Source of the DNA: an uncultured Chitinophagaceae bacterium
GTDB lineage: Bacteria > Bacteroidota > Bacteroidia > Chitinophagales > Chitinophagaceae
Length of the DNA stretch: 64,000 nucleotides
Direction: 5' to 3'
NCBI GenBank assembly: GCA_903904335.1
Contig: CAIVCF010000151.1
Location: 1 to 64,000, forward strand
How positions within the stretch are numbered: the first letter of the stretch is position 1; each line of letters starts with the position of its first letter. Under the pieces are notes generated by a model, which did no database searches, was not told the DNA's origin, and saw only the letters and a program-made list of their open reading frames with translations. Below are positions 39,468-44,346 of this stretch, piece by piece. The position numbers and the translations under genes are program-made.

Positions 39468-39965
39468 TTAAAACCAACCATCGGTTGATGGGGGCTCTGA
39501 TGAAATTGTTTTTCTTACTTCAATCGCAGGAATTGCATTATTGGTTGCAGTATTCTTTTTAGGTTGCGGCGTTTTCTCCATTCCCGATATTCTTGGTTTT
39601 TCCTCCAACGGTTTATAACGGTTCTTGGTCATGGAACCTTCTATCACAGCGCCTTCTTCAATCTCTAAAGTAGTGGCGATGATGCCGCCTTTGATCACTG
39701 CATTATTACAAATAACCGCTTTGGTCTTGCATTCAATATTTCCTTCCACACGACCATATACAATTAAATGAACGGCAGTAATATCGCCATTAATAACGGC
39801 TTCTTCTCCGATCACTAATTTAGATTCAACATTGATATTACCTGCTACATTTCCGTCTATGCGGCCCGGTATTTTAGATTCAATATCGCCTTGTATCAAG
39901 ATGCCCTTTGGTAATAGAAAGCTGTCGTGGGGCTTGTTTCCAATAAGTTGGTTTAACTTAAACAC
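39468..39965 (-). CDS. Bactofilin (polymer-forming cytoskeletal protein)
   Basis: A 165-residue protein that self-assembles into filaments without nucleotides. The beta-helix repeats every 17-18 residues (KIPGRIDGNVAGNINVESKLVIGEEAVINGDITAVHLIVYGRVEGNIECKTKAVI) are the DUF583 pattern. N- and C-terminal tails are proline- and lysine-rich. Bactofilins act in cell shape, stalk or polar scaffolds. The actin-like gene lies directly upstream (21 bp), so the two filament-type proteins are encoded together. Confidence 0.93.
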   Translation of the reverse strand: MFKLNQLIGNKPHDSFLLPKGILIQGDIESKIPGRIDGNVAGNINVESKLVIGEEAVINGDITAVHLIVYGRVEGNIECKTKAVICNNAVIKGGIIATTLEIEEGAVIEGSMTKNRYKPLEEKPRISGMEKTPQPKKNTATNNAIPAIEVRKTISSEPPSTDGWF

Positions 39966-39986: not shown

Positions 39987-40946
39987 TTATCTTTTTTCAT
40001 TCTCGAAGGTAGATACAATAGTAGTTGCATTACCCAGATCAATACCAATGGCACTTTCAAATTTTTCGTCAGATATACGAAGTGAATTATATAAATAACC
40101 GATGCTTGCCAATTTATCAGCATCAGGTGCAATCTCAACCGGCATCACATCTTTAAATTCTTCCTGAAATGCTTCCTGTAGTTCTGTATAAAATGCACCG
40201 CCTCCCAATAAATAGATCTTTTCACAATTCTCAAAATCAGAATCTGTAAAATATCTTTTGAATAATGGAGAGATGATCTCTTTATAATATTGGTGCAGAA
40301 TCTCTTTACGCAATTGTTTAAGATCGATATTTTTTCTGTTGATGAAGATGAACCCTTTTACGAATGCATCATCCAGTTGATGTTCATTCTTCATTTCCAG
40401 ATAATATTTCTTATTCAATTCTCTTTTCAGGTTATTGATCGCATAACGCAGTCCATGAGAACTGAAAACTGTACGTTGTACCAAACCATCCGCTGTTGCC
40501 ATGGCACCTTCAATGGTTCCGAAACCAAGACTGATCGCAATAAAACTCTTTGGTTGCTGTGGTCCCAATACTTTTTTCAAACCAATGATACCGCCAACTA
40601 TTTCGGGGATAACATCAAATCTTTCAATATCGAATAACGCTTTTTTAACGGCGCCCCTGTTGTGAAAAGTTTGTGTATCGTATTCCACTAAGAAATTCTT
40701 TCTGGCTAAAAAACGTTCAGCAGCTTCTTTGTAAACATTATAAGTTGAAAAAGGGAAACCAACTGTAACAAACATGGGTTGTTGAATGGTTTCTGCAACA
40801 GTGATCAATGCTGCTTTGAACAACACTTCATAATCTTCTTCCTGCGGAGAAGCATTCACTACCTTATTTGGATTGATGCCGCCTCTTTTTGCAAGATTTC
40901 CTGCCAAATACCAGATGTTTTCATTCTTGATCTTTAAGCCGTTCAA
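39987..40946 (-). CDS. Actin-like (ParM/Ta0583-type) ATPase with permuted phosphate-1 motif
   Basis: Residues numbered from TTG 40946 (319 aa). Actin-fold motifs appear as: TVGFPFSTYN (61-70), PEIVGGIIG (114-122), phosphate-2 loop AISLGFGTIEGA (137-148, first Asp replaced by Ser), and adenosine loop YLLGGGAFY (245-253). APDADKLASIGYLYNSL is the normal C-terminal helix. The phosphate-1 motif AIGIDLGNATT, normally N-terminal in this fold, comes afterwards (299-309) just before the stop. In frame upstream, codons 41024 to 40949 encode IKVSTITFPSVFESAFGN, the segment that normally follows phosphate-1, but with no ATG; ATA at 41024 or TTG at 40946 may start. Cotranscribed with bactofilin. Confidence 0.7.
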   Translation of the reverse strand: MNGLKIKNENIWYLAGNLAKRGGINPNKVVNASPQEEDYEVLFKAALITVAETIQQPMFVTVGFPFSTYNVYKEAAERFLARKNFLVEYDTQTFHNRGAVKKALFDIERFDVIPEIVGGIIGLKKVLGPQQPKSFIAISLGFGTIEGAMATADGLVQRTVFSSHGLRYAINNLKRELNKKYYLEMKNEHQLDDAFVKGFIFINRKNIDLKQLRKEILHQYYKEIISPLFKRYFTDSDFENCEKIYLLGGGAFYTELQEAFQEEFKDVMPVEIAPDADKLASIGYLYNSLRISDEKFESAIGIDLGNATTIVSTFENEKR

Positions 40947-41115
40947 TAGATCTCTTGAAGAATTTTCTGTATTGCCAAATGCTGATTCAAAAACACTCGG
41001 AAAAGTAATAGTTGATACTTTTATTGCTAATTAGATTGGATATGGCGAAAATAATTAAATTTTCGTCAAAATGATATTTTGATTGATTTTTAATGCTTTG
41101 ACAATATTACACCCC

Positions 41116-42921: not shown

Positions 42922-43170
42922 ATGAAAAAAATATTGATTCTTCCTGCTGCTGTGATGATTTTTATTTCCTGCAATGTTTTCAAAAAAACAGATCAGAATG
43001 GTTGCCCGCCGAATGTGAAAAATTTGGGTGCTGAAAAATTAATGATGTATCAACAGGAAGGTTATCATCCAAAAACTGCCAAAGAAAAAAAAGAATATGA
43101 AATGGCAATGAAAGAATTGAAAAGCAATAATAAATCAATCACAAAAGAAGCGGTGAATACCAAAGACTAA
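42922..43170 (+). CDS. Small lipoprotein, unknown
   Basis: An 82-residue protein with lipobox FISC (Cys near residue 17 of MKKILILPAAVMIFISCN). The mature part is Lys-rich and short (GCPPNVKNLGAEKLMMYQQEGYHPK). ATG 42913 adds three residues and is possible. It follows the carbonic anhydrase gene and its stop overlaps that of the convergent rsgA gene by 4 bp. Function unknown. Confidence 0.6.
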   Translation: MKKILILPAAVMIFISCNVFKKTDQNGCPPNVKNLGAEKLMMYQQEGYHPKTAKEKKEYEMAMKELKSNNKSITKEAVNTKD

Positions 43171-44096
43171 CTCCAACTGTTTTCTTCCATCGTTTCCATG
43201 ATGGTGAGATAACTGATATATCTTTCTTCCGAAATCGTTCCTGCATTCACTGCAGCTTTTACCGCACAACCGGGTTCATTGTAATGTTTGCAATTATTGA
43301 ACTGGCAATCATTCACCAACTTTCGCATCTCAGGAAAATAACCGCTTAATTCTTCTTTCTTCAGATCAACCAACCCCAATTCTCTGATGCCCGGGGTATC
43401 AATGATTCTTCCACCAAAAGGGAGGTCGAACATTTCTGCAAAAGTGGTGCTGTGCATTCCCTTGCCGCTCCAACCACTCACTTCTAAAATCTTTAAATCC
43501 AATTCAGGAAAAATATTATTGATTAATGTTGATTTACCCACACCGCTATGTCCGCTTAACAATGTTGTTTTATTTTTTAATACTTCTTTTACTTCCTCTA
43601 CACCCTGATGTTGTATAACACTTGCCAGCACTACTTTGTAGCCTACAGTTTCATAAATGGATTTCAGCAATTCAAACTTTTCATTCTCTTTCTTTTTATA
43701 AATATCTGCTTTATTAAAAACAATAATTGCCGGAACATGATACATTTCACAAGCCACTAAAAATCGATCAATAAACCCCTGTGAAGTTTTTGGGTCTTTT
43801 AATGTTGCAAATAAAATACTCTGATCTAAATTGGATGCAACAATATGATGATGGTGTTTATTATGCGGACTAACCCTTGCCACATAATTTCTTCTGTCTA
43901 AAATTTCAGAGATTGTTGCAGTGTCTTCCAATTCATTTTCCATTTCCATTTCCACTTCATCACCAACTGCAATAGGATTGGTAGAAGTAATGCCATCGAT
44001 CTTCAACACACCTTTAATGCGTGCATTAAAAAGCCTGCCATCATTGGCTTTCACCACATACCAACTGCCGGTAGATTTATAAACAAGTCCTTTCAT
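43167..44096 (-). CDS. rsgA: Ribosome small-subunit GTPase RsgA
   Basis: A late 30S assembly GTPase of 309 residues. The OB fold (GLVYKSTGSWYVVKANDGRLFNARIKG) precedes the circularly permuted GTPase: FNKADIYKK (G4), LSGHSGVGKSTLIN (G1) and IDTPGIREL (G3). A zinc-knuckle tail follows (CQFNNCKHYNEPGCAV). The open frame extends to 44195, but that part is a translated repeat (TLQECDATDDATC); ATG at 44096 (MKGLVYKS) is the family start. Confidence 0.93.
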   Translation of the reverse strand: MKGLVYKSTGSWYVVKANDGRLFNARIKGVLKIDGITSTNPIAVGDEVEMEMENELEDTATISEILDRRNYVARVSPHNKHHHHIVASNLDQSILFATLKDPKTSQGFIDRFLVACEMYHVPAIIVFNKADIYKKKENEKFELLKSIYETVGYKVVLASVIQHQGVEEVKEVLKNKTTLLSGHSGVGKSTLINNIFPELDLKILEVSGWSGKGMHSTTFAEMFDLPFGGRIIDTPGIRELGLVDLKKEELSGYFPEMRKLVNDCQFNNCKHYNEPGCAVKAAVNAGTISEERYISYLTIMETMEENSWS

Positions 44097-44154
44097 TGCC
44101 TTACGAAGATAAGAGGATTGTTTGTTACGAGCTGAAGTGCATGTGGCATCGTCT

Positions 44155-44346
44155 GTTGCGTCGCACTCTTGTAGGGTTTGTTCTTTATTCAACAAGTTTG
44201 ATGGCTAAAGCCCGAATATCTTTTCTCAATTGCCCCGCCATTAATGGCGGGGCAATTCAATAAATCAACATATGACTAACTACAATTTTCAGTATTGCTT
44301 TAAAAGCACAAGTGAGTGACACAACCGACGATGCCATGAAATGCAG
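44155..44346. repeat. Composite element: inverted core copies around a 30-bp palindrome
   Basis: The left copy (44174-44155, minus, CTACAAGAGTGCGACGCAAC) and right copy (44306-44324, plus, GCACAAGTGAGTGACACAA) flank a perfect 30-base palindrome at 44228-44257 (arms AATTGCCCCGCCATT). Arms lie about 50 bases from each core copy. The right tail reads CCGACGATGCCATGAAA and the left tail, on the minus strand, AGACGATGCCACATG. Confidence 0.7.

Follow-up and report, generated by a model that had tools for sequence, protein, structure and literature searches.

To our knowledge, the topology of the actin fold is usually taken as fixed, from bacteria to humans. Among the described systems, FcmB of filamentous cyanobacteria is a chromosomal, ParM-derived actin acting in cell shape (PMC12645912), and a bactofilin with an M23 peptidase (BacA-LmdC) constitutes an established morphogenesis module (PMC10945521). 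The locus presented here belongs to an uncultured Chitinophagaceae bacterium and was analysed within the window, i.e., a stretch of 64,000 nucleotides. An earlier note, made from the letters of this stretch, had read it as an actin-like ATPase with its phosphate-1 motif at the C-terminus, beside a bactofilin. This core reading, in the form of a circular permutation, has strong support and holds for an entire family (features in Table 1). As far as we found, a rearranged actin of this swapped-end kind is apparently undescribed, since the open-licence literature yielded no previous account of a permuted actin, subscription papers and bioRxiv lying outside the search.

Table 1. Features of the permuted actin-bactofilin locus, with positions counted along the window.
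Feature	Positions	Strand	Remarks
Permuted actin-like ATPase, 345 aa	39987..41024	-	probable start ATA 41024, ATG in relatives
New N-terminus IKVSTITFPSVFESA, residues 1-15; strand canonically after the phosphate-1 hairpin	40980..41024	-	
Phosphate-1 hairpin AIGIDLGNATTIVSTF, residues 325-340, C-terminal	40005..40052	-	
Phosphate-2 loop IAISLGFGTIE, residues 162-172, Ser165 for Asp	40509..40541	-	
Glu141 (VIPEI), candidate equivalent of the ParM catalytic Glu	40602..40604	-	equivalence inferred
Adenosine motif GGG, residues 274-276	40197..40205	-	78/78
Bactofilin, GTG start	39468..39965	-	Pfam PF04519 E 2.5e-24
Bactofilin C-terminal Trp motif DGWF	39471..39482	-	
Upstream region with conserved core, probable promoter/leader	41025..41115	-	

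The layout of the gene is as the earlier note had described it. An in-frame stop (41033-41031) is followed by LAIKVSTITFPSVFESAFGN, and IKVSTITFPSVFESAFGN forms the N-terminal edge of the frame. At the other end, the last helix, APDADKLASIGYLYNSL (H302-317 in the AlphaFold model), is followed by AIGIDLGNATT, then by ten residues, IVSTFENEKR, after which comes the stop (39989-39987). No ATG opens the frame, its first ATG, GTG or TTG codon being the TTG at 40946, and an ATA stands at 41024. A gap of 21 bp separates the gene from the GTG of the bactofilin, which is identified by its Pfam domain (85.8 bits for a cut-off of 27.9). This bactofilin is the only one found in a search of the window's genome, which also has MreB and an FtsA-size match. 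RsgA-like GTPases are a circularly permuted GTPase family; one is encoded a few genes away (43167-44195, minus strand), probably by coincidence.

The AlphaFold model of the protein, computed with 28 aligned relatives as input, is a confident, two-lobed actin fold (pLDDT 89.3, pTM 0.90), and its chain ends with two strands (E325-330 and E334-340) in a block of pLDDT 91-95. A second model, made for a 36%-identical member, has the same elements, including the two C-terminal strands (pTM 0.87). In order-preserving structural alignments, the fold is similar to ParM, Ta0583, MreB and actin (Z 20-28), residues 1-317 of the model being aligned to residues 20-349 of pCBH ParM (Z 27.2, rmsd 2.6, 299 residues), 18-325 of Ta0583 (Z 24.9) and 28-334 of MreB (Z 20.9). 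When the alignments are repeated with the second model, ParM, Ta0583 and MreB again align only from residue ~18-28 onward. The canonical N-terminal hairpin thus has no counterpart at the N-terminus of the model, and the C-terminal strands of the model have none at the canonical C-terminus. The earlier note had expected the C-terminal strand pair to fill the place of the N-terminal hairpin upon superposition on ParM and Ta0583: the actin fold and the lack of an N-terminal counterpart are borne out, and the hairpin would lie in that very place.

The same gap is found at the sequence level. The Pfam profile ALP_N matches the protein (E 9e-9, 36.1 bits for a cut-off of 26.3), the match beginning at residue 4 with profile position 17, i.e., without the phosphate-1 hairpin. 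When the C-terminal 20-22 residues of three divergent members are put in front in silico, the match starts at position 1 instead of 17 (18 in one of them) and gains 8.1, 7.7 and 6.2 bits, the moved hairpin (residues 325-340) filling ALP_N positions 1-16. Shuffled tails, used as a control, gain 0.7-0.8 bits and extend the match only to position 15-16. Taken at the level of sequences and models, these results argue, with near certainty in our view, that the actin fold has been circularly permuted in nature and that this arrangement is conserved across Bacteroidota. The cut in the chain would fall after the phosphate-1 hairpin (strands 1-2) and before strand 3 of subdomain IA, and the hairpin would be joined via a linker of ~7 residues to the old C-terminal helix, which is close by in the canonical fold. 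The usual two-lobed actin, a fold predicted at high confidence, would result, and its phosphate-1, phosphate-2 and adenosine loops would surround one nucleotide site.

The permuted order, as sought in relatives, is shared by 92 loci encoding 78 distinct proteins, all of them from Bacteroidota (spread beyond this phylum was probed by two short peptide patterns in genome contigs only), with a range that runs from type strains of Chitinophaga to families belonging to other classes of the phylum. In all 78 proteins, at identities down to 36% or less, the phosphate-1 motif G-x-D-x-G-N comes after the last helix; the presence of this order in every relative found indicates more than chance. Throughout the 92 loci, the chain starts 6-8 residues before the conserved Pro (P9) of FPS (FPSVFE) and continues for 12-107 residues beyond the phosphate-1 Asp. 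None of these loci has phosphate-1 at the N-terminus, and the combination of an N-terminal phosphate-1 with the same C-terminal hairpin, also sought, is not found among them. Close relatives in other genomes keep the order at 61-99% identity. Scanning of GTDB genomes yielded 55 named loci, with identities down to 36%; most belong to Chitinophaga, the rest to Sediminibacterium, Foetidibacter, Parafilimonas, Segetibacter and others. Further members, from other Bacteroidota families and classes, came from sampling at the level of the class, the phylum and the order. The family is widespread but patchy, as 24 of the 395 genomes of the phylum sample (~6%) hold a permuted actin. In the tree, the Chitinophagaceae members form a clade (100/99) and those from elsewhere are mostly grouped family by family, the deep joins being unsure because of long branches. 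Two copies are present in each of three genomes (G561, G601 and G900), both copies of G561 being near a bactofilin. The family profile, run against the sequences of solved structures, has no match even at E 10, and the fold matches in BFVD are the phage G protein Gp506, unnamed proteins and Hsp70-like proteins.

The absence of an ATG at the expected start in the window could also indicate a sequencing, assembly or pseudogene artefact, whereby an ordinary actin gene would be split, frame-broken or rearranged. Independent isolate genomes and MAGs however show the same order, there with ATG starts, and the gene differs from that of two sister species by 3-4 amino-acid changes per 345 at a dS of 0.57-0.77 (dN/dS 0.006). 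The probability of an artefact is thus negligible, and a read error splitting one gene, which the earlier note had named as an alternative, is excluded by the conservation of the order across relatives; the ATA alone may be an error. As sister species of 99% protein identity have ATG where the window reads ATA, the missing ATG is local to the window's assembly or species, and this codon would be either an assembly error or a rare AUA start in an otherwise intact gene. The 60 bp before the start (41025-41084, minus strand) differ at 0-1 positions among these species despite their dS of 0.57-0.77, which suggests a promoter or leader. One claim of the earlier note has to be given up, namely that the overlap of IVST and KVST at the two ends is the trace of a tandem duplication. 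Compared without gaps, the two 6-residue ends are identical at a family-wide mean of 0.56 of 6 residues, the overlap is not conserved, and the permutation dates much too far back for a nucleotide trace to survive.

None of the 78 proteins departs from the phosphate-1 Asp, from Glu141, from the GGG adenosine motif or from the phosphate-2 Gly residues, and they presumably bind ATP or a relative. The phosphate-2 loop of the window reads ISLGFGT, with the claimed replacement of Asp by Ser, and the replacement is a family trait: this position is Ser in 76 proteins, Asn in one and Gly in one, and the metal-binding Asp is present in 0/78. With Ser instead of the metal-coordinating Asp, hydrolysis would be slow or would proceed by a different chemistry, and this could give stable, not dynamically unstable, filaments or a nucleotide switch. 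We take residue D170 of ParM to be the phosphate-2 Asp. The D170A change in ParM suppresses filament dynamics and leaves static filaments; with AlpC D301A and Alp7A D212A, filaments do not form at all (PMC5539076). Loss of an Asp therefore need not yield static filaments, and to stable filaments, which are a guess, we give slightly less than an even chance.

The permuted actin might alternatively not polymerise at all and be a nucleotide-dependent adaptor or switch, with an FtsA- or PilM-like role, that regulates or anchors a bactofilin filament. Loss of the phosphate-2 Asp throughout the family is consistent with such a role, as are weak matches to PilM (best E 0.0042, 6/7 members) and the fact that the neighbour bactofilin already supplies a filament. 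The closest folds nevertheless include the filament formers pCBH ParM, CorM and BeeR, even though this likeness does not settle polymerisation, and we see in the adaptor a serious possibility on which we lean to the doubtful side.

The bactofilin neighbour, for its part, was sought in the relatives and follows the permuted actin immediately, in the same orientation, in 54/54 Chitinophagaceae loci. A bactofilin is also present within about 1.2 kb in families f36, f103, f108, f121, f122 and part of f110; some bactofilins were called by a home-made profile, and those tested were confirmed by Pfam. The adjacency is not universal, since in f71, f105 and one genus of f110 the only bactofilin detected lies elsewhere. 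Three f103 genomes (L107, L111 and L115) display a run composed of an M23 peptidase, the permuted actin, a TPR protein, a bactofilin and ATP synthase genes, the full order being Pfam-named in L107 and the M23 peptidase in all three. A reading of f103 neighbours as parA/parB was rejected, Pfam giving glycosyltransferase 9 and M23 peptidase.

The bactofilin of the window is divergent and has a C-terminal Trp. This tail recurs in adjacent bactofilins, 66 of the 68 distinct ones ending with Trp or Trp plus one residue (SWF, DGWF, KLW, NIW; loci L063, L075, L078, L082, L084, L085, L088 and others) and the remaining two with LLF/LIF; as the sequences are related, these are not 66 independent events. 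The tail persists across fast-evolving, long-branched bactofilins, the tree of which is poorly resolved (15/55 inner branches well supported). It is found in 0/30 unpaired bactofilins (18 from genomes without permuted actin and 12 unlinked), and the nearby bactofilin of the f103 TPR loci is also without it. In f71 (L064-L066), where no bactofilin is adjacent, it is the permuted actin that carries a tail of ~90 residues past phosphate-1, ending with FLKTGMW or FLISGTW; small open frames downstream of bactofilin-less permuted actins contain no Trp-tailed partner. The likeness of these endings points to a shared docking motif on bactofilin and on the f71 actin. The permutation would set free a C-terminal tail at a new site of subdomain I, able to carry a linear motif as in f71.

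The co-occurrence could also result from a shared operon history, the role of the permuted actin being unrelated to its neighbour, and f71, f105 and part of f110, where the two genes are not adjacent, would agree with this. Adjacency recurs, however, in six or more families, the flanking genes of which differ, adjacent bactofilins keep their common Trp tail despite fast divergence, and the f71 actin bears a similar one. A passive neighbourhood is thus unlikely, and a functional link between the permuted actin and the Trp-tailed bactofilin is likely. The two-filament module proposed in the earlier note gains from the conserved gene order and from the co-conserved Trp tail, its filaments being putative.

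All our results lead us to favour, with good confidence, an actin-like ATPase that is circularly permuted and acts together with a Trp-tailed bactofilin; its polymerisation and function are putative. As gene order and the Trp tail suggest, the two proteins would form a chromosomal cytoskeletal or envelope-organising module beside the ordinary MreB. A more ambitious and quite tentative scheme is that the permutation was fixed early in Bacteroidota and led to a hydrolysis-altered filament actin co-assembling with the bactofilin, in which the Trp tail would be an exchangeable docking peptide, borne mostly by bactofilin and by the actin in f71, the whole being a two-polymer cytoskeleton distinct from MreB. 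A conserved family with a C-terminal phosphate-1 shows that the actin fold tolerates permutation in evolution, parts of the nucleotide site being supplied from opposite ends of the chain, and the absence of the phosphate-2 Asp amounts to a natural experiment on the job of that residue. An undescribed actin-bactofilin partnership is also indicated in culturable Chitinophaga, whose filamentous cells turn into spherical bodies on ageing (PMC2744240). The part of this partnership in cell shape can thus be tested directly.

Among known systems, ParM-type proteins (ALP_N; Dh-cParM1 8x1i, pCBH ParM 6ixw and plasmid R1 ParM) share the actin fold over 300 residues (Z up to 27.8), phosphate-1, the adenosine motif and a Glu at the connect region. 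The permuted actin differs from them by its C-terminal phosphate-1 hairpin and its Ser at phosphate-2, and also by being chromosomal and paired with a bactofilin; in the representative loci looked at, no ParR-like gene stands next to it. It could be argued from the ParM-like fold and the ALP_N match, as well as from a distant match to the plasmid-borne PRTRC protein D, that a plasmid-partition ParM sits in the chromosome by chance. The conserved bactofilin neighbour and the lack of a ParR-like one in those representative loci speak against this, 72,556 plasmids gave one match, of 24% identity, and viral contigs encode no relative, which makes such an origin very improbable. PRTRC system protein D is the closest sequence match outside the family (23.7% over 41-296; TIGR03739 matched at E 1.6e-5 by one member), but it has an N-terminal phosphate-1, AIDVGYGNTK, and a phosphate-2 reading IDAGYGTLD. 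Ta0583 of Thermoplasma (2fsj), the best Foldseek match (E 5e-16) and of similar compact size, has the canonical order, the alignment starting at its residue 18. CorM (9rmi; fold Z 24.9) likewise aligns in canonical order, from residue 60. The MreB_Mbl profile reaches 13.5 bits, under its cut-off of 27, and the genome has a separate MreB. The FcmB profile (NCBIfam NF052678) matches weakly, in 2/7 members (best E 0.012), which does not amount to membership; FcmB differs in having FcmC, not a bactofilin, as its partner, and its ParM-like domain is reported to have conserved nucleotide-site residues. Finally, the BacA-LmdC module resembles the three f103 genomes holding a permuted actin, where a bactofilin is clustered with an M23 peptidase, but the known module contains no actin, whereas the direct partner of the bactofilin in Chitinophagaceae is the permuted actin.
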